A stretch of DNA of 64,000 bases, from contig NZ_JALM01000020.1 of the NCBI RefSeq assembly GCF_000737195.2, positions 186,001-250,000 of the forward strand, in the 5' to 3' direction. Positions 12,585-21,756 of this stretch are shown piece after piece. The notes under the pieces were generated by a model. It was not told where the DNA came from and searched no databases. It saw nothing but the letters and a program-made list of their open reading frames with translations. A program made the position numbers and the translations under genes. Each line of letters starts with the position of its first letter. Position 1 is the first letter of the stretch. This stretch comes from Sciscionella sediminilitoris. Lineage in GTDB: Bacteria > Actinomycetota > Actinomycetes > Mycobacteriales > Pseudonocardiaceae.

Positions 12585-13972
12585 TGCGCGACCGGGAACG
12601 GAAACTGTTGCTGCGCAACAGGATCGCGATCACCGGTGCCTGTATCGTCGCGGTCGCGCTGATCGGGGTGAGCCTGACGACCTGGCTGGTCACCGAACAC
12701 AACCTGCGCGATCAGCTGGACCGCACCCTGGTGGAGAAGACCACCCGGCAGCGCATGGTGCTCAGCGATGGCAGCGATTCACCCCCGCAACCGCGCGAAG
12801 CCCCGGAAACCGCCATGCTCTGCGGTACCACCCCGGTCGACAAATCGCTGCGCAACTTCATCGAGGACATCGAGCTGTTGCGCGCCGACGGACGCAGTTG
12901 CGGACCCGAGAAGTCCCGGATCCAGGAGCTGCCGGGCGATCGCGGCGTGGACCGGCTCACCCTGCGCGATGGCAGCACGCTGTCCGGCATCCCGGTGCGG
13001 CTGGCGCTGCGCCCGCTCGAGAACGGGGATGTGCTCGTCTACAGCCGTCCGCTCGCCGATATCGAGGACACCCTCGCCGGGCTGCGGGATGTGCTGATCG
13101 CGGTCTGTTTCCTCGGCATCGTCGGCGCCGCGGTCACCGGCCTGGTGCTGACCAGGCGCGCACTGTCCCCGATGCAGCGGCTGACCACCGCGGCCGAACA
13201 CATCGCGCGCACCCAGGACCTGAACACCCCGATCGAGGTCTCCGGGCGGGACGAGACGGGCAGGCTGGCCACGGCGTTCGCCGCGATGACCGCGGCACTG
13301 CGCGATTCCCGGCAACGCCAGCGCAGGCTGGTCACCGATGCCGCGCACGAGCTGCGCACCCCACTGACCAGTCTGCGCACCAATATCGAACTGCTCGGGC
13401 GCAGCGCGCGCACCGGGAAGGCCATTCCCGCCGAGCGGCACACCGAGATCCTCGACCGGCTCACCGCGCAGGCCACCGAATTCGGCGAGCTGATCGGGGA
13501 ACTCGTGGAGCTCGCCAGGGACGAGACCGAGCTCGCCAGGACGCCGGTGGCCATACACGAGGTCGTGGAGCGCGCGGTGCACCGGGCGACCATCCGCGCC
13601 CCCGAGCACGAGTTCGATGTGGACAGTGCGGAGTGGACGGTGCTCGGTGATGCGGCCGCACTGGAACGGGCCGTGCTGAACCTGTTGGACAACGCGGTGA
13701 AATTCGCCCCGCCCGGTTCGGTGATCACCGTCCGATCGGTGCCCGGCGAGATCACGGTCACCGATCAGGGACCGGGAATCGCCGCGGCACAACGGTCCAA
13801 GGTGTTCGAGCGGTTCTGGCGCGCCCCCGAGGCCCGCGCCCTTCCCGGATCCGGGCTGGGCCTGGCCATCGTGGCCACCGTCGCCGGCGCGCACGGTGGC
13901 AGCGCGGAGTTCGTGGAACCACCGCAGAGCCGCGGAGCCCGGGCGCGGATCAGCCTGCCTATTTCAGGTTGA
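12584..13972 (+). CDS. sensor histidine kinase, MprB/PrrB-like
   Basis: A 462-residue membrane sensor. TM1 is at about residues 14-37, an extracytoplasmic sensor region with two Cys (MLCGTT and GRSCGPE) runs to about 165, TM2 follows (DVLIAVCFLGIVGAAVTGLVL), then a HAMP linker, the dimerisation helix with His255 in TDAAHELRTPL, and the ATPase domain with N box LLDNAVKFAP and G boxes TDQGPGIA and GSGLGLAIV. The start codon overlaps the regulator's stop by 1 base (TGATG), the standard coupling of cognate pairs. The end overlaps the convergent MFS gene by 14 bases. Confidence 0.94.
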   Translation: MRDRERKLLLRNRIAITGACIVAVALIGVSLTTWLVTEHNLRDQLDRTLVEKTTRQRMVLSDGSDSPPQPREAPETAMLCGTTPVDKSLRNFIEDIELLRADGRSCGPEKSRIQELPGDRGVDRLTLRDGSTLSGIPVRLALRPLENGDVLVYSRPLADIEDTLAGLRDVLIAVCFLGIVGAAVTGLVLTRRALSPMQRLTTAAEHIARTQDLNTPIEVSGRDETGRLATAFAAMTAALRDSRQRQRRLVTDAAHELRTPLTSLRTNIELLGRSARTGKAIPAERHTEILDRLTAQATEFGELIGELVELARDETELARTPVAIHEVVERAVHRATIRAPEHEFDVDSAEWTVLGDAAALERAVLNLLDNAVKFAPPGSVITVRSVPGEITVTDQGPGIAAAQRSKVFERFWRAPEARALPGSGLGLAIVATVAGAHGGSAEFVEPPQSRGARARISLPISG

Positions 13973-15293
13973 GGTCCCTGGTCTCCGGTGCCATGGCGAC
14001 CGTGGTGACGGTGCCGATCAGCAGGATCGCGGTCAGGCACAGCATCGAGGCACCGAAGCCGATCCCGGAGATCGCGATCGGCAGCAGGAAGGTCCCCGCG
14101 GCGGAACCGAGCCTGCTCGCGCCGTTGAGCAGGCCGACCCCGGAACCGCGCAGTTCGGTGGGGAACAGCTCGGGCGGGTAGACCTGGTCCAGGTTCGAGG
14201 AGGCGGACATGACGAAGGTGAAGATCAGGAACAGCCCGAAGATGAGTGGGATCGGCCCGTCCGGCCACAGCGAGATCACCCCGAGGCTGGCAGTCAGCAC
14301 CACGAACGACCAGATGAGCAGCCTGCGCCTGGACAGTTTCGCGACCAGCCACAGCCCGCCGATCCCACCGGCCAGCAGGAAGAGGTTCAGCAGGGCGTTG
14401 CCGAAGAATTCGTCCTCCCCGAAGCCGACCTTCACCAGCATGATGGGCAGGAAGGTGTAGATCGCGAAGTACGGGATCACCTGGCAGTTGTAGAACACGA
14501 TGCCGAACACGGTCTTCTTCAGATGCGCACGGCCGAACAGTTCCCGGTATCCGCCCGCGTTCTCGTTCGGTTCCGCGGCGATCGCCTCGATGTCCACGCC
14601 CTTGCCGATGTATTTGGCGATGATCGCGCGCGCCTCGTCGATGCGGCCCTTGCTGATCAGCCAGCGCGGGGATTCCGGGGTACCGATCCGCAGCACCAGT
14701 ACGAGCACCGCGGGCACCGCCCCGGTCATGAGCAGCCAGCGCCACGCGTCCGGGCCCAGGTTCACCAGATAGTTCCCGAGGAAGTACGCGGCGACATAAC
14801 CGACGGTCCACAGCACGGTCAGCGAGGCGAGCATGCCGCCGCGGTGTTTGCGTGGCACGAATTCCGCGACCAGTGTCGGCCCGAGCGCGTAGTCCGCACC
14901 GATCCCGATCCCGATGAGCAGCCGGAGCACGAACAGTTCCACCGGACCGGTCACGAAGAACTGCAGCACCGAGGCGATCGCGATCAGCAGGAAATCCAGC
15001 AGATAGAGCAATTGGCGCCCGATCCGGTCGCCGAGCCAGCCGAGCGCGATACTCCCGGCGAAGATCCCGATCAGCGCCGAGGCACCGAGCAGCCCCTGCC
15101 AGGCGGCACCGAGATGCATCTGCGGGGCGATGGCCGCGAGCGCGATCCCGATCGTGCCGAGGTGATAGCCGTCGGAGAAGTTCGCGCCGAAGGTCAGCGC
15201 GGTGATCTTGAGGTGGAACCGGTTCAGCGGTACATCGTCGAAACCGGTGCTCACCTGGCTATCGCTCGGTGAAGATTTCTTGCTCGGCAGCAT
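13959..15293 (-). CDS. MFS transporter, metabolite:proton symporter type
   Basis: A 444-residue 12-TM transporter of the sugar-porter/SLC22-like branch: GWLGDRIGRQ between TM2 and TM3, VAEFVPRKHRGG after TM4, GTPESPRWLISKGR at the central loop and PELFPTELRGSGVG near TM9-10. These branches take up organic anions, aromatic acids or sugars by proton symport. Start ATG 15293. Its first 35 bases overlap the 3' end of the upstream RpiR gene, so the two form one operon. Across the regulator lie two ammonia-lyase-like genes on the other strand, so the transporter probably imports their substrate or exports their product. Confidence 0.88.
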   Translation of the reverse strand: MLPSKKSSPSDSQVSTGFDDVPLNRFHLKITALTFGANFSDGYHLGTIGIALAAIAPQMHLGAAWQGLLGASALIGIFAGSIALGWLGDRIGRQLLYLLDFLLIAIASVLQFFVTGPVELFVLRLLIGIGIGADYALGPTLVAEFVPRKHRGGMLASLTVLWTVGYVAAYFLGNYLVNLGPDAWRWLLMTGAVPAVLVLVLRIGTPESPRWLISKGRIDEARAIIAKYIGKGVDIEAIAAEPNENAGGYRELFGRAHLKKTVFGIVFYNCQVIPYFAIYTFLPIMLVKVGFGEDEFFGNALLNLFLLAGGIGGLWLVAKLSRRRLLIWSFVVLTASLGVISLWPDGPIPLIFGLFLIFTFVMSASSNLDQVYPPELFPTELRGSGVGLLNGASRLGSAAGTFLLPIAISGIGFGASMLCLTAILLIGTVTTVAMAPETRDLNLK

Positions 15294-16122
15294 AACGGTC
15301 GAAGCCTTCCAATCGTTGCCGTGCGCGCGGTCCCGCGGCGTCGGCGATGGTCTCCAGGAGCGCGACCGAGAGCGAGACGATCGCGGCATGCGAGTCGAAC
15401 ACGAGTTCCGAGCCGACCCCCACGTGCAGCACATCCCCGGCGTGCTCGGTGATCGCCGAGACCGGTTCGTCGGTTATCAGCACGACGCGCATGCCGAGTT
15501 CCCCGGCGAACCGCATCGCGGCCGCGGTTTCCCGCGGATAACGGGGCATCGCGAAGAACACCGCCTCGCTTGCCCCCGCCGCGCGCGCGTGCCCGAGCTG
15601 GTCGAGCAGCACGGTGCCGCCGTTGGTGAGCACGCGGACATCGGGATGGATCTTGGCGGCCAGATACCCGAACAGGCCCGCGACGTGCGCGGAGACCCGG
15701 AGTCCGGAAACCACGAGCGGGACCGAGGCGTACAGCCGCTCGGCGATCCCGGCAAGGCGTTCCTGCCCGGCGAGTTCGGCGTGCAGCGTCTCCAGCCGCG
15801 CGATGTCCTCGCGCACCCCGAGCTGCAGCTTGTTGCCCTCCTCGGCGGGTTCGGCGGCCTCCAGGAAGCCGCGCATCGCGCGCCGGAACTGCGGGAACCC
15901 GTCGAAGCCGAGCAGGGAGACGAACCTGGTCACCGAGGGCTGGCTGACCCCGGCCCGCTCGGCGAGCTCGCCACTGGTGAGTGCCGCCGCCTCGCCGATG
16001 TTCGCGAGCAGGTACTGCGCGATCCGCCGCTGCGCCGGGGTCAGCGTCCGGCCGGCGAGCAGCTCGTGCAGCGCCCGCGACGGTGTCGAGGCGCCCGTTC
16101 GCGGCTGCCGGGACACCGCCAT
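15259..16122 (-). CDS. MurR/RpiR-family transcriptional regulator
   Basis: The 287-residue protein has the N-terminal HTH of RpiR proteins (TPAQRRIAQYLLANIGEAAALTSGELAERAGVSQPSVTRFVS, in which SQPSVTRF is the recognition helix) and a C-terminal SIS domain (about residues 115-260: VVSGLRVSAHVAG, FFAMPRYPRETAAA, LITDEPVSAI). SIS domains usually bind phosphosugars, but members near amino-acid ammonia-lyase or hydantoin genes also exist. ATG at 16122 is preferred: AAGGG lies 8 bases upstream; ATG 16128 and 16161 are alternatives. It faces the lyase-like genes across an inverted repeat and most likely controls both directions. Confidence 0.92.
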   Translation of the reverse strand: MAVSRQPRTGASTPSRALHELLAGRTLTPAQRRIAQYLLANIGEAAALTSGELAERAGVSQPSVTRFVSLLGFDGFPQFRRAMRGFLEAAEPAEEGNKLQLGVREDIARLETLHAELAGQERLAGIAERLYASVPLVVSGLRVSAHVAGLFGYLAAKIHPDVRVLTNGGTVLLDQLGHARAAGASEAVFFAMPRYPRETAAAMRFAGELGMRVVLITDEPVSAITEHAGDVLHVGVGSELVFDSHAAIVSLSVALLETIADAAGPRARQRLEGFDRYAAEQEIFTER

Positions 16123-16154
16123 GGTCATCACCCTTGATTCGTGCCGAAGAATGT

Positions 16155-16185
16155 GTTTCATTCAAAATGGTCAATGAATGGAAAC
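16155..16185. promoter_or_regulatory. inverted repeat between RpiR and lyase-like genes, likely operator
   Basis: CATTCA (16159-16164) and TGAATG (16175-16180) are perfect inverted copies, and the flanks extend the symmetry to GTTTCATTC (16155-16163) against GAATGGAAAC (16176-16185) with one extra base on the right. The site is AT-rich in a GC-rich setting and sits between the starts of the divergent regulator and lyase-like gene, as expected for an RpiR-type operator. Confidence 0.6.
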
Positions 16186-16205
16186 TTGTCAAGATGGAGA
16201 TCGCC

Positions 16206-17696
16206 GTGGATGAGGCGCAGGCAGGAACGGGCGCGGACGACTTCCCGACCTCGGCGACCCGGATCACCGTGAATGGGATCGGCCTGCGGTGCGCGGACGT
16301 GGTGCGCATCGCCCGCTCACAGGCCTCGGTCGAACTGGCCGAGGACGCGATCGAACGGGCCCGCGAGGCCAGCGAGATCGCCGAGCGGACCGGTGCCGAA
16401 CGCGCGGTCTACGGGCGGACCACCGGTGTCGGGGCCAATCGCGACCACATCGTGGACAGCGGGTCCGCCGTCGAGCACGGGCTGCGCCTGCTGCGCAGTC
16501 ACGCCGGGGGAACCGGGGAACCGCGCAGCCCCGAATCGGTGCGCGCCTGCATGGCGATCCGGCTCAACCAGCTGGCCGCGGGCGGCAGCGGGGTGCACCC
16601 CAGGGTGTTGCGTGCCCTGTCCAGCGCGCTCGGGGTCGGGGCGCTGCCCACGGTGCACACCCGCGGGGCCATCGGCACCGGGGACCTCACCGCGCTCGCC
16701 GAGGTCGGGCTGACCCTGGCGGGCGAGAATCCCTGGTCGATCGGGGGCATCCCGCCGATCGTGATCAATCCCGGCGACGCGCTCGCGTTCATCAGCAGCA
16801 ACGCGGCCACCCTCGCCTCGGTCACCCTCGCCTGGCACGACCTGCGCAGGCTGCTGCGAGCCAGCCATGTGGTGACCGCGCTGTCCTTCCTCGCGCTCGG
16901 CGGTTCCCCGGAGGCCTACGCGGCCGAGGTGCACGCCGCGCGCCCGCATCCCGGTTCGGTGGAATGCGCGGCCGCCATGCGCCGGGTGCTCGGCCTCGAG
17001 GAGCACCCGGTCAGCGGGCGGCGGCTGCAGGATCCGTTCGGGCTGCGCGCCTTCCCGCAGGTGCAGGGGCCCGCGCTGGAGGCGATCGACGCACTGGAAT
17101 CGGTGCTGGCCATCGACATCAACGCCGCGGCCGAGAACCCGCTCATCTCCAGGGAAACCGGGACCGTGTTCCACCACGGGCACTTCTCCACCGCGCACCT
17201 GGCCCTCGCGCTGGACCGGGTGCGCGCCGCGCTGCACCATGTCGCCGAACTGTCCGCGACCCGGCTCGGCGATCTGGTCGAACCCGAGCAGACCGGGTTG
17301 CCCGCCTTCCTGGCGAGCGGGCCATCGGGCAGTTCCGGGATCATGATCCTGGAATACGTCACCCATGACGCGCTCGCCGAACTGCGGCACGCCGCCGCCC
17401 CGGTCACGCTCGGCACCGCGGTGATCTCCCGTGGCCTCGAGGACCACGCCAGTTTCACCACCGAGGCCGCGCGCAGCACGGCGACCGCGATCGACGCCTA
17501 TCGCACGATGCTCGCCTGCGAACTGCTCGCCGCGGTGCGCGCCCTGTGGCTGGCCGATGCCCAGTTGCCCGATGTCCCCGCGGGGCGCGCCTATGCGGCC
17601 GCCCGCGACACGATCGCCCTCACCGCGCCCGACCACCAGCTCACCGGCGAGATCGCGCGCGCGAGCACGGTCATCGACCGGCTCGCCGACTACTGA
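16206..17696 (+). CDS. histidine/aromatic ammonia-lyase-fold protein lacking the MIO triad (paralogue 1)
   Basis: About 496 residues with the HAL/PAL fold landmarks: VYGRTTGVGANRD near residue 65 (Tyr-Gly-x-Thr-Thr-Gly), NPWSIGGIPP, LQDPFGLRAFPQVQG, AAAENPLIS and SRGLEDHASF. The region that should hold the MIO-forming Ala-Ser-Gly reads RGAIGTGDLTALAE (bases 16662-16703): one residue shorter than the usual R-G-S-x-G-A-S-G-D-L, leaving Thr158-Gly159 in place of the triad. The usual NGTQ region reads SSNAAT and the YSLR Tyr is Phe. MIO chemistry is therefore unlikely. GTG 16206 has GGAG 6 bases upstream; ATG 16194 is possible. Followed after 10 bases by a second paralogue. Confidence 0.87.
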   Translation: MDEAQAGTGADDFPTSATRITVNGIGLRCADVVRIARSQASVELAEDAIERAREASEIAERTGAERAVYGRTTGVGANRDHIVDSGSAVEHGLRLLRSHAGGTGEPRSPESVRACMAIRLNQLAAGGSGVHPRVLRALSSALGVGALPTVHTRGAIGTGDLTALAEVGLTLAGENPWSIGGIPPIVINPGDALAFISSNAATLASVTLAWHDLRRLLRASHVVTALSFLALGGSPEAYAAEVHAARPHPGSVECAAAMRRVLGLEEHPVSGRRLQDPFGLRAFPQVQGPALEAIDALESVLAIDINAAAENPLISRETGTVFHHGHFSTAHLALALDRVRAALHHVAELSATRLGDLVEPEQTGLPAFLASGPSGSSGIMILEYVTHDALAELRHAAAPVTLGTAVISRGLEDHASFTTEAARSTATAIDAYRTMLACELLAAVRALWLADAQLPDVPAGRAYAAARDTIALTAPDHQLTGEIARASTVIDRLADY

Positions 17697-17706
17697 AAGG
17701 CAGGCA

Positions 17707-19245
17707 ATGTTCGCGAACGAGATCTCCTCGGTGGCACTCGGGGAGAAACCGGTGACGATCACCGAATTCGTGGCAGTGGCCCGGTATCACGCCCGGGTCG
17801 AGTTCACCGAGTCCTATGTGGACAGGGTGCGCGCCTCCCGTGCGCTCATCGAGCGGTTCCTCGCGGAGAACCGGTTGATCTACGGGGTGACGACCGGATT
17901 CGGGGACAACTTCACCGAGGTGATCGCTCCCGAGGACGCTGCGGAACTGCAGGCGAACATCGTGCGCTCGCACGCGGTCTCGGTCGGCGAACCGCTGCCC
18001 GGGGAAGTGGTGCGGGCGATCTGGCTGATGGAACTGATCGGGCTCGGCAAGGGGTACTCCGGAACCGGGCCGGAAACCCTGGAGCTGATCCGCACCCTGC
18101 TCAACGCGGACGTGCTCCCGTACGTTCCCGGTGAAGGCTCGGTCGGCTATCTCGGTCCCGAGGCGCACATGGCGCTGCTGCTGATCGGTGAGGGAAGGGC
18201 ATGGCTCGACGGGGAACTGCTGGACGGCGCCGAGGTGCTGCGCCGGGTGGGTGCGCGGCCGATCCGGTTCGGCTGCAAGGAAGGGCTGAGCCTGACCAAC
18301 GGAACCCATTCGGTGACCGCGATCGGGGTGCTCGCCGCACACGACGCGAACCTCGCCGGGCAGACAGCGGACATCGCCGCCGGGCTGAGCCTGCAGGCGC
18401 TCAAGGGCACGGTGCGCGCGCTCGATCCCCGGCTGCACGCGGTGAAACGGCATCCGGAGCAGGCCGGTGTCGCGGCCAATCTGCGCCGGATCACCGAGAA
18501 CAGCCCGCTCAGCGAGGAATTCCTGGACTACCGCCTGCAGGACACCTACAGCCTGCGCGGGATCCCGCAGATGCACGGCGGCGCGAAACGCGCGCTGCAC
18601 CAGGCCTGGACCGTGGTCGAGGAGGAGCTGGACTCGGTCGGGGACAATCCGATCATCGTGCCCGAGGACGGGGACGGCATCGCGCTCATGGGCGCGAACT
18701 TCGACAGCACCTATGTCGGCATCCAGTCCGATGCCATGACGAACGCGCTGACCGTGCTCGCGAAGATCGCCGAACGCCGGACCGACCGGATGGTCAACAG
18801 CAACTTCAGCGAACTGCCCGCCTTCCTCGCCCCGGATCCCGGTCTGCACAACGGGTTCATGATCGCCCAGTACACCTCGGCGGCGCTGAGCATGGAACTG
18901 CAGGGAATGGCCAGTCCCGCCTCCGCGCGCACCGTGCCGACCTCGGCCAACCAGGAGGACCCGGTCAGCAACGCCTACTCAGCGGCGCTGTCCGCCTACC
19001 GCGCGGCCGGGAAACTCGGCTACATCCTCGCGATCGAGCTGCTGTGCGCGGCACAGGCTTTCGATCTACTCGCCCCGCGCAGGCCCTCCCCGGTCAGCGA
19101 GGCGGTCAAGGAACTGATCCGCTCCGCGGCCCCCGAGGTCACCGGGGACCGGGTCTTCCACGGGGACATCGAAGCCATCCGGGAATTCGTGCGCCACGGC
19201 GAGGTGTTGCGCACCGTGGAGGCGCGAACCGGCCCGCTGGAATAG
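17707..19245 (+). CDS. histidine/aromatic ammonia-lyase-fold protein with YLG in place of the MIO triad (paralogue 2)
   Basis: The 512-residue protein is a clear HAL/PAL relative: LIYGVTTGFGDNF with Tyr59, CKEGLSLTNGTHSVTA (the NGT loop), LQDTYSLRGIPQMHG, DNPIIVPEDG and TSANQEDPVSN. The MIO loop reads GEGSVGYLGPEAHMALLLIG: Tyr148-Leu149-Gly150 (bases 18148-18156) stand where Ala-Ser-Gly belongs, and the DLAPLAH that follows is shortened to PEAH. Other catalytic positions (Tyr59, Asn of NGT, the YSLR Tyr, Gln-Glu of NQED) are kept, so a binding or catalytic role without MIO is likely. AAGG precedes the ATG by 6 bases and the stop of paralogue 1 lies 10 bases upstream, so they are co-translated and may form a hetero-oligomer. 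Confidence 0.9.
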   Translation: MFANEISSVALGEKPVTITEFVAVARYHARVEFTESYVDRVRASRALIERFLAENRLIYGVTTGFGDNFTEVIAPEDAAELQANIVRSHAVSVGEPLPGEVVRAIWLMELIGLGKGYSGTGPETLELIRTLLNADVLPYVPGEGSVGYLGPEAHMALLLIGEGRAWLDGELLDGAEVLRRVGARPIRFGCKEGLSLTNGTHSVTAIGVLAAHDANLAGQTADIAAGLSLQALKGTVRALDPRLHAVKRHPEQAGVAANLRRITENSPLSEEFLDYRLQDTYSLRGIPQMHGGAKRALHQAWTVVEEELDSVGDNPIIVPEDGDGIALMGANFDSTYVGIQSDAMTNALTVLAKIAERRTDRMVNSNFSELPAFLAPDPGLHNGFMIAQYTSAALSMELQGMASPASARTVPTSANQEDPVSNAYSAALSAYRAAGKLGYILAIELLCAAQAFDLLAPRRPSPVSEAVKELIRSAAPEVTGDRVFHGDIEAIREFVRHGEVLRTVEARTGPLE

Positions 19246-19492
19246 GCCCGCGGCGGCGCACGGTTACCTCGCCCTGCCACCCGCTGGCCGGGCCGGGGTG
19301 CTCGTCATCCAGGGCGAGCTCCCCGGCTTCTCCCGCGCCCGCGTGCACGAACGCCCTCGAATTCCCGCACGGTGAACTCGGCTGAGCGAGCTGATTGGCG
19401 CGGCATGAGCCGGCGCTCGTTGTTCTAGTCCATTCCGGCGATACCCGATCGAGCCACTTAATTCTGATCGCTTTTCTGCTATTATTCATGGC
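19246..19492. other. 247-base intergenic region with an AT-rich promoter at its right end
   Basis: No credible gene is seen. The left half is GC-rich and could hold the terminator of the lyase-like genes, though no hairpin with a T-run is evident. The last 60 bases turn AT-rich, with TATTAT at 19480-19485, 7 bases before the ATG at 19493, which would give a leaderless message for the HNH gene. Confidence 0.4.
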
Positions 19493-20821
19493 ATGAACAC
19501 TGGGGATAGTTCGACGATGCCACCGATCGGAGCATCGTCGAACAGAGAAATGCTCACCGAACTCGGCGAACGGTTCACATTGTTACGTCGAACCGAAGCC
19601 GAGATCCTGAATCTTGTTGCACTGCTTGATAAACACGGTGCTCCGGTGGAGTTCGGCTATCGTGGTTCACCTGCGCGAATGGTCGAGGATGTGGCGCGGG
19701 TCGGTTTGGGCGAGGCGCGCCGGATTGCGGATCGCGCGCGAGCGCTTTTCGGAGCGCTGGGAATCAGCGGTGAGCCACTGTCGCCGGAGTTGCCGAATAC
19801 CGCGGAAACCTATGCACGCGGGGAACTCGGCAGTGAGCATGTGGATCGGATCCGGAAGTTCGCCGCGGAGTTGCCCGCGGATGTGTTGACCGGAGAATCC
19901 TGGCCGGTCGCGGAAAACTGCCTGGCGCAGATCGCCGCTGAAACTGGTCCGCGTGAGTTGAGCCGCCCGATCCGGGAACTGCACGCCCGCCTCGATCCGG
20001 ATGGTCACCCACCAAACGATCGGGACCCCTCGCGACCACGACGGGAGATCTGGCTGCGGCAGCACAACCACGATTGGCGCATCGAAGGCCACCTGGACCA
20101 GGAAAACGGCTTGAAACTACGCAGTGTCCTCGATGTGCTGAGCAAAACCCGCGGCCCGGAGCTTCGACGGCCGAGTGAACGGGATGCCGATGCGTTCGCC
20201 GACATCGTCCAGCTCGCTGCGAGCCCGGAGAATCTCCCCGAAAACGGAGGAGAACCGTTCACCGTCATGGTCACCATGACCGAAGAATCCCTGCGCGAAG
20301 GCATCGGCCACGGCACCACCATGGACGGCACTACCATCCCCGCCACCCGACTACGCCGCATCGCCTGCGACGCCGGAATCATCCCCACCGTCCTCGGTAG
20401 TGACGGCGAAGTACTCGACATGGGATGCCGGGACCGCACCGCACCACCGAAACTCCGACGCCGACTCATCGCAAGAGACCGCGGCTGCGCCCACCCCGAC
20501 TGCGACAAGCCGCCCGCCCTCACCGAGGCACACCACATTCGGCATCACGCCAACGGCGGACTCACCACCGAGGACAACATGCTGCTGCTGTGCGCCTACC
20601 ACCACACAGCGATCCACAACACCGAATGGGAAGTCCGCATCCGCAACGGCAAACCAGAGTTCGCTCCACCCAGCTACCGCCACGACACCGAACACTCCGC
20701 GCAGCACGCGGTCAGCCGATCTCGACGAGGATCTTTCCGCGCACCCCACCGGATTCCAGGTCCTGGTGCGCTTTCGCGATGTCGGCGAGCGGATGCACCC
20801 GGTCCACCACCGGGGCGATGA
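19493..20821 (+). CDS. DUF222 / HNH endonuclease-domain protein (13E12-like)
   Basis: The 442-residue protein has the two-part layout of the mycobacterial 13E12 family: an N-terminal DUF222 helical domain (about 20-290) and a C-terminal HNH domain with CAHPDCDKPPALTEAHHI, HANGGLTTEDNMLLLCAYHH. These are multicopy, lineage-specific genes of uncertain biology, sometimes targets of phage-like excision. Recognisable sequence stops near residue 405 (base 20711); the last 36 codons are antisense to the convergent oxidoreductase gene, so the natural end has probably been lost or displaced. Its codon use and base composition are less GC-rich than the neighbours. No ribosome site is seen; a leaderless start is possible. 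Confidence 0.85.
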   Translation: MNTGDSSTMPPIGASSNREMLTELGERFTLLRRTEAEILNLVALLDKHGAPVEFGYRGSPARMVEDVARVGLGEARRIADRARALFGALGISGEPLSPELPNTAETYARGELGSEHVDRIRKFAAELPADVLTGESWPVAENCLAQIAAETGPRELSRPIRELHARLDPDGHPPNDRDPSRPRREIWLRQHNHDWRIEGHLDQENGLKLRSVLDVLSKTRGPELRRPSERDADAFADIVQLAASPENLPENGGEPFTVMVTMTEESLREGIGHGTTMDGTTIPATRLRRIACDAGIIPTVLGSDGEVLDMGCRDRTAPPKLRRRLIARDRGCAHPDCDKPPALTEAHHIRHHANGGLTTEDNMLLLCAYHHTAIHNTEWEVRIRNGKPEFAPPSYRHDTEHSAQHAVSRSRRGSFRAPHRIPGPGALSRCRRADAPGPPPGR

Positions 20822-21671
20822 GGCCGTTCTCGGTGAGCCGGGTCAGTTCGGCCAGATCCGCCTGGTACGGGTTCCCGCTGAAGAACCGCACCCGCTGTTT
20901 GCCGAACACCGTGGAACCGAGGATGTAGCCGATCGAGGACACCGGCCGTTCCGTGTCGAACGCGATCGAGACCATCCGCCCGCCCGGTGCCAGGGCGGCC
21001 CGGGAACCGCGCAGATCGGTGCCGACGGTATCGAGGACCACGTCGAACCTGCCGAGCTCGGCCACCCCGGTCTTGCGGTAGTCGACGGCTTCCGCGGCAC
21101 CCAGTTCCCGGACGAGGTCCAGGTTGCGCGTCCCGGCGAGCCCGGTCACCCGAGCGCCGAGTGCCGCGCCCAGCTGCACGGCGATGCTGCCGACCCCGCC
21201 GCTGGCCCCGCGCACCAGCAGCCGCTCCCCCGCGCGGAGTTTCGCCTTGTCCCGCAGCGCGGTCACCGCGGTCGTCCCGACGGGCAGCGCGGCCGCCTGC
21301 ACCAGGTCCAGCTCCCGCGGGGCATGGGCGACACGATTCGCGGGCACGGCGAGGAATTCCGCAACGCTGCCCATCGCACGCCCGAGCACTCCCCATACCC
21401 GGTCCCCCGGCGCGAACCCGGAAACCCCCGGTCCCACCGCCGCGATCTCCCCGGTGAAGTCGATTCCGGTCCGCTTCGGGCCCTGTTCACCTCGAGCCCA
21501 CAGTCCGGTGAGGAACCTTATCCGGCCCGACCGCGCGTGCAGCTCGCCGCCGTTCACACTCGTCGCGGCGACCCGCACCAGGACCTGACCCGGTCCGGCC
21601 TCGGGTTTCGGTACGTTCCCCACATAGAGCACATCCGGTGTTCCGTATTCGTCGTACAGTGCGGCGCGCAT
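20712..21671 (-). CDS. zinc-independent quinone oxidoreductase / NADP-dependent MDR enzyme
   Basis: A 319-residue medium-chain reductase of the quinone-oxidoreductase type: GIDFTGEIAAVGPGVSGFAPGDRVWG in the catalytic domain, AAALPVGTTAVTALRDKA, and the NADPH motif LVRGASGGVGSIAVQLG. The zinc-binding Cys/His set of alcohol dehydrogenases is absent. It likely reduces quinones or activated alkenes in the cytoplasm. ATG 21671 is chosen from the family start MRAALYDEYG and the AAGGGAAA site upstream. A divergent TetR gene 85 bases away with an inverted repeat between them suggests substrate-inducible repression. Confidence 0.92.
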   Translation of the reverse strand: MRAALYDEYGTPDVLYVGNVPKPEAGPGQVLVRVAATSVNGGELHARSGRIRFLTGLWARGEQGPKRTGIDFTGEIAAVGPGVSGFAPGDRVWGVLGRAMGSVAEFLAVPANRVAHAPRELDLVQAAALPVGTTAVTALRDKAKLRAGERLLVRGASGGVGSIAVQLGAALGARVTGLAGTRNLDLVRELGAAEAVDYRKTGVAELGRFDVVLDTVGTDLRGSRAALAPGGRMVSIAFDTERPVSSIGYILGSTVFGKQRVRFFSGNPYQADLAELTRLTENGLIAPVVDRVHPLADIAKAHQDLESGGVRGKILVEIG

Positions 21672-21693
21672 TGGCTTTCCCTTCCCATCGGTC

Positions 21694-21718
21694 GTTACGA
21701 TCACGCTAACGCCGTAAC
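21694..21718. promoter_or_regulatory. inverted repeat, likely TetR operator
   Basis: GTTACG (21694-21699) and CGTAAC (21713-21718) are perfect inverted copies separated by 13 bases in the gap between the divergent oxidoreductase and TetR genes. Spacing and position suit a TetR dimer that represses both promoters. Confidence 0.5.
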
Positions 21719-21756
21719 CGGATGGCACCATCCACATAGCGCCGAGGTGAGAGACG

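Follow-up and report, generated by a model that had tools for sequence, protein, structure and literature searches.

Two tandem ammonia-lyase-fold proteins without the MIO triad in Sciscionella, candidate betaine lyases that may act in hercynine catabolism

Introduction

What does a protein with the fold of histidine ammonia-lyase (HAL) do when it lacks the triad of the 4-methylideneimidazol-5-one (MIO) cofactor? The question is raised by two tandem genes, here called P1 and P2, in a 64,000-nucleotide stretch of the Sciscionella sediminilitoris genome (contig NZ_JALM01000020.1, positions 186,001 to 250,000; hereafter the window). In HAL, MIO activates the amino group so that it can leave. A reading made from the sequence alone had described P1 and P2 as neighbouring lyase-fold paralogues that have lost the triad in different ways and had proposed that they form a hetero-oligomer with another chemistry. 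Coordinates, the 10-bp spacing and matches to PF00221 over the full length of both proteins (cut-off 27.3 bits; scores in Table 1) agree with the first part of that description. We find that P1 and P2 are lyase-fold paralogues that probably carry out MIO-independent elimination, each on its own. Loci, genomes and contigs of the comparison set are labeled L, G and C.

Results

Both proteins have altered loops without the MIO triad

Comparison of the loops of P1, P2 and their close relatives revealed no Ala/Thr/Cys-Ser-Gly triad in any of them. The P1 loop, RGAIGTGDLTALAE, is one residue shorter than that of HAL, GSVGASGDLAPLAH, with Thr-Gly in place of the triad, exactly as had been read from the sequence. 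For P2, the loss of the triad stood, but its replacement by Tyr-Leu-Gly proved to be a slight misalignment, because LGPEAH of P2 pairs with L(A/G)PLxH of HAL, leaving a single Tyr at the site of HAL Ala-Ser-Gly-Asp and a loop three residues shorter than in HAL (aligned: HAL, GSVG-ASGD-LAPLAH; P1, GAIG-TGD-LTALAE; P2, GSVG-Y-LGPEAH). Loop length is thus 13 residues in P1, as in ergothionase, and 11 in P2. A triad hidden elsewhere in the loops or proteins, which the sequence-only reading had named as a reason to abandon its claim, was sought and ruled out: the pattern [ATCGS]SG is absent from the whole of P2, and its occurrence in P1, within LASGPSGSSG at residues 368-377, lies outside the loop and is not conserved in relatives.

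The altered loops are conserved in about 60 relatives of P1 and 15 of P2. The P1-family sequences keep G-[AS]-[ILV]-G-T-[GS]-D, with T158-G159-D160-L161 invariant in alignment A1, and carry S-S-N-A at the N-G-T of HAL and Glu at the Gln of its MIAQ motif. In the P2 family, residues G144-M155 are invariant in alignment A2 and GSVGYLGPEAH is kept among relatives in three phyla, an invariance somewhat favored by the method, since YLGPEAHM was among the six peptide patterns used to retrieve these relatives. Further P2 paralogues carry slightly varied loops (GYLSPEAH, GYLAPEAH, GYLAVEGH).

Sciscionella marina DSM 45152 carries the pair too, with spacing and loops unchanged (98% identity for P1 and 97% for P2), and the ratios of nonsynonymous to synonymous substitution rates (dN/dS) between the two genomes, 0.089 for P1 and 0.084 for P2, indicate that both genes are under purifying selection. 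Therefore, the missing triads are due neither to sequencing error, another way in which the earlier claim might have failed, nor to pseudogene decay.

Residues for the substrate are kept and those next to MIO drift

Active-site positions were compared, in Pseudomonas HAL numbering, across 64 MIO-type, 61 P1 and 15 P2 sequences plus ergothionase. In the MIO-type set there is little or no variation at Tyr53, His83, Asn195, Gln277, Tyr280, Arg283 and Glu414. Equivalents of Tyr53, His83, Gln277, Arg283 and Glu414, including the HAL-type imidazole residues His83 and Glu414, are essentially invariant also in P1, P2 and ergothionase. The remaining two, Asn195 and Tyr280, contact MIO in HAL. The Asn195 position is Ser in all P1 and 3 of the 15 P2 sequences, and the Tyr280 position varies in both families, being Phe in most P1; P2 itself retains both, although its family varies at each. 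The roles of the Tyr, Glu, Asn, Gln and Arg residues in HAL have been described (PMC11432326). By this comparison, the positions lost or drifting are those that adjoin MIO, and the positions kept are those predicted to bind an imidazole amino acid and to take a proton.

Ergothionase and HutH as the nearest known systems

AlphaFold models of P1 and P2 were good (predicted local distance difference test scores of 82.6 and 79.1). With Foldseek, the top Protein Data Bank (PDB) match of P1 was Treponema denticola ergothionase (6s7j, template modeling score 0.86, 26% identity in the fold alignment) and that of P2 was HAL (6v6h); as Foldseek also uses sequence, these matches are not independent of the sequence comparison. 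Structures 6S7J and 6S7Q of this ergothionase are reportedly due to Maurer et al. in 2019. The sequence-only reading, which knew of no characterized counterpart, had missed this enzyme, a HAL-fold member described as a MIO-less trimethylamine lyase (PMC13405746), its substrate being ergothioneine. Trimethylamine elimination by a HAL fold without MIO is consequently already known from ergothionase, and what is new is the P1 and P2 families. Like both of them, ergothionase keeps the Tyr, His, Arg and Glu residues; its loop, RSSIGEGD, has the shortened length of RGAIGTGD in P1, with which it also has Ser at the Asn195 position in common, and differs from the shorter loop of P2.

HutH resembles P1 and P2 in fold, length and HAL-type binding residues and is by sequence and fold closest to P2, but it has the Ala-Ser-Gly triad that both lack. 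The true HutH of the same genome is encoded separately, on contig C13, with urocanase adjoining. Against the NCBIfam HAL models NF006871 (cut-off 524 bits) and TIGR01225 (539 bits), P1 (295.6 and 284.7 bits) and P2 (498.5 and 497.4 bits) score below the cut-offs. Some P2 relatives exceed the former (537.3 and 525.3 vs 524 bits) and are therefore probably misnamed.

In phylogenetic trees, P1 and the main P2 group each form a well-supported clade. Ergothionase groups with P1 once other long-branch rows are removed (SH-aLRT 97), a placement that carries a long-branch caveat. The first tree needed two changes to explain MIO loss, and the approximately unbiased test does not reject a single MIO-less clade (p = 0.71).

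Each family occurs alone

P1 has many orthologues in the same bacterial family and others in more distant actinobacteria. About 36 loci outside Sciscionella have P1 (48-70% identity) without P2; at L036 and L037 P2 is absent, yet the RpiR and MFS neighbors are kept. The loop GSVGYLGPEAHM is found in P2 relatives from Mycobacterium, Scopulibacillus (Firmicutes), Paraburkholderia, Prescottella and a deltaproteobacterium, and outside Sciscionella P2 was seen without P1 in the 6 kb flanks examined. The pair was thus recovered in another genome, that of S. marina, and in none outside Sciscionella among the genomes examined.

Other partners were observed as well. The neighborhood of P1 in G102 and G041 includes a different HAL-like gene without MIO (loop GSIGASDLNQ), and a betaine-type ABC transporter is encoded either between the two or next to them. 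This further family (L054:14258-15778 and L061:305-1852) has Arg at the His83 position and Lys at the lysine position of ergothionase. As pairing of MIO-less lyases recurs with different partners, it fits two related substrates better than a shared active site. Separately, a Paraburkholderia HAL-like protein with the loop GSVGYLSHMAH (L178:7107-8732) adjoins a GntR/UTRA regulator and an ABC transporter, and the P2 relative of Prescottella defluvii (L130:5695-7369) is split over two frames, by frameshift or assembly error.

Gene neighborhoods point to uptake and methylamine metabolism

An OpuAC-type binding protein gene was found within 7 kb of P1 in 10 of 26 genomes, where 0.34 would be expected under random placement; because the genomes are related, the probability should not be read at face value, although no fewer than four lineages contribute. 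Genes in high-GC neighborhoods were called by a simple composition rule. In L193, a single operon comprises RpiR, an SSF symporter, canonical HutH, an ABC ATPase, permeases, OpuAC and P1, and in L072/L188 hutU, an amidohydrolase gene, hutF and hutI are followed about 30 bp later by P1. In L187, P1 adjoins genes for a type III glutamine synthetase and for glutamine-amidotransferase, glutamate-synthase-like and sarcosine-oxidase-like proteins, which together appear to resemble the N-methylglutamate pathway; in the genome that carries this set (L187:5213-10580), neither HAL nor urocanase is present. For one P1-linked binding protein the top PDB match, by a narrow margin, is the ergothioneine binder EgtUC.

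P2 adjoins a BCCT betaine/carnitine/choline transporter in L171, an MttB trimethylamine methyltransferase and an SSF symporter in L136, and a sodium:solute symporter in L169. In Scopulibacillus (L125) its neighbors are an MFS gene and an N-methyl-L-tryptophan oxidase above the NCBIfam cut-off, and in Paraburkholderia a Rieske oxygenase, a reductase, an M19 dipeptidase and an aldehyde dehydrogenase. Homologues of the window MFS transporter adjoin either P1 without P2 (L036, L037, L195) or P2 without P1 (L125, L130), and one in L204 adjoins an FAD amine-oxidase-like gene. Among the comparative evidence, this exchange is the best indication that the two proteins may share an imported substrate or use closely related ones.

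The P1-P2 locus

The features of the locus are collected in Table 1. P1 starts with GTG, with an in-frame ATG at 16194 as a possible alternative, and P2 with ATG. The upstream start of the MFS gene is uncertain, its open reading frame extending to 15434. P1 has a relative of the RpiR gene nearby in about 10 family loci, and also in L190 and L193. The inverted repeat between the divergent genes, a candidate operator, is present also in S. marina (L123), a relative too close to prove selection. Directly 3' of P2 lies a DUF222/HNH gene (19493-20821), which appears unrelated.

Table 1. Features of the P1-P2 locus, in window coordinates
Feature	Position	Strand	Evidence or remark
MFS transporter gene	13959..15272	-	PF00083 190.9 bits; homologues adjoin P1 alone or P2 alone
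RpiR/MurR-type regulator gene, divergent from P1	15259..16161	-	PF01418 53.9 bits
Inverted repeat TTTCATTCA-N10-TGAATGGAA between divergent genes; operator candidate	16156..16183	.	
P1, MIO-less HAL-fold protein, 496 aa	16206..17696	+	PF00221 394.6 bits; ergothionase 6s7j top fold match; ~60 same-loop relatives
P1 altered MIO loop GAIGTGDL, residues 154-161	16665..16688	+	Alignment A1; loop comparison
P1-P2 gap, 10 bp, with ribosome-binding-like AAAGGCAGG	17697..17706	+	Identical in S. marina
P2, MIO-less HAL-fold protein, 512 aa	17707..19245	+	PF00221 513.6 bits; alignment A2; HAL 6v6h top fold match
P2 altered MIO loop GSVGYLGPEAH, residues 144-154	18136..18168	+	Alignment A2; loop comparison

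Ergothioneine and hercynine genes in the same genome

The genome encodes EgtD, which makes hercynine (370 bits, cut-off 291). Contig C90 carries an ergothioneine-utilization-like cluster (L074:954-10156). It encodes a third HAL-like protein lacking MIO, with the loop GSLGTGDLQP and an N-terminus that resembles a signal peptide, together with a ProP-like MFS protein; ErtE scores above its cut-off, whereas the genes resembling thiourocanate hydratase and ErtD score below theirs. The ert system (NCBIfam NF058530, NF058538-NF058540) is of a similar pathway type, in which a urocanase-like hydratase and amidohydrolases act after a betaine lyase. Unlike that system and that of ergothionase, the P1-P2 locus has no adjoining thiourocanate pathway genes: thiourocanate hydratase, ErtD and ErtE are absent around 13959-21737. 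Ergothioneine thus seems to be served elsewhere in the genome, which leads us to favor hercynine for P1 and P2. Open-access papers yielded no gene for hercynine breakdown, and we know of no gene assigned to the opening step of its catabolism.

Discussion

The change of chemistry that had been suspected from the sequence is supported as probable, in the form of MIO-independent elimination, by the precedent of the MIO-less ergothionase and by the retention of base and substrate residues. We infer the reaction, substrate and regulation as follows. P1 and P2 would be two self-sufficient HAL-fold enzymes working without MIO, each releasing trimethylamine, or less probably another N-methylated amine, from the betaine of an imidazole amino acid to give urocanate or a close analogue. 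Since trimethylammonium leaves readily without activation and is unable to form an adduct with MIO, the cofactor would be dispensable. The base would be Y69 in P1 and Y59 in P2, the carboxylate would be bound by R281 and R284, and the imidazole by H99 and E412 in P1 and by H89 and E417 in P2. The divergently encoded MFS protein would import the substrate and the RpiR protein would control the operon. Judged from residues and neighborhoods, action of P1 and P2 as N-methylated-amine lyases on a histidine-type betaine seems somewhat better than an even prospect, and hercynine in particular is a tentative choice of substrate.

Several observations weigh against this assignment. Ergothionase has a lysine (in TIQKTF), which we take to be catalytic, where both P1 and P2 have Tyr. 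OpuAC genes flank true HutH too (G012, G111, G085, G065), so that a transporter of this type points to a substrate that is histidine-like or a betaine and not to a trimethyl group; nor do the binding proteins linked to P1 and those linked to HutH split into two clades. OpuAC beside P1 is thereby weakened as proof of a betaine. Genome G042 has P1, and neither urocanase nor HAL was found in it. Many P1 copies lie amid housekeeping genes (pyruvate kinase, gltBD), a synteny judged to be background, and their neighbors are uninformative. For P2, the neighborhood evidence comes from few loci that differ between lineages, and the N-methyltryptophan oxidase could indicate another aromatic amine.

The last point leads to the alternative that P1 and P2 are MIO-independent amine lyases for a substrate other than hercynine, such as ergothioneine, an N-methylated histidine, or an aromatic betaine like hypaphorine (tryptophan betaine). 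Ergothionase as the closest characterized homologue and the EgtUC match of a P1-linked binding protein speak for it along with the Scopulibacillus oxidase; the contig C90 cluster, which includes a HAL-like gene of its own without MIO, argues against ergothioneine, and the His83 and Glu414 equivalents favor imidazole over indole or phenyl groups, so that on balance we regard such a substrate as rather unlikely. Histidine itself as the substrate of a MIO-free ammonia-lyase would account for the HAL-type binding residues, for P1 within the hut cluster of L072 and for OpuAC-type uptake genes beside both P1 and HutH. Yet canonical HutH is usually also present, on contig C13 in this genome and within the same operon in L193, and expelling unactivated ammonia is chemically what MIO is needed for; we consider this very unlikely.

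The hetero-oligomer dividing one active site, as the sequence-only reading had it, has in its favor the 10-bp tandem arrangement in both Sciscionella genomes examined and the fact that, in the HAL fold, several subunits contribute to each active site. Each family, however, stands alone in many genomes and alone keeps Tyr53, His83, Gln277, Arg283 and Glu414, so neither needs the residues of the other; the separate distribution rules out an obligate hetero-oligomer as the general case, and an obligate mixed oligomer in Sciscionella is in our view highly improbable. That P1 and P2 are decaying or non-catalytic HAL copies is scarcely credible: the lost triad and the split Prescottella gene are what such decay might leave, but dN/dS is about 0.09, the altered loops are invariant across phyla, base and substrate residues are invariant, and genomic partners are conserved.

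MIO is regarded as a hallmark of this fold, and ergothionase is the sole described exception that we found. Two further MIO-less families, spread over several phyla and lying beside uptake and methylamine genes, suggest a rule for cofactor loss, namely that MIO is not needed for the expulsion of an amine that is already quaternary or N-methylated. It is conceivable, though we would not yet count on it, that P1 and P2 found two MIO-independent lyase families opening hercynine catabolism and that many proteins named HAL are trimethylamine-releasing betaine lyases. Enzymes that degrade betaines and release trimethylamine probably lie hidden in databases under the name of histidine ammonia-lyase, which would bear on the turnover of ergothioneine and hercynine and on the sources of trimethylamine.

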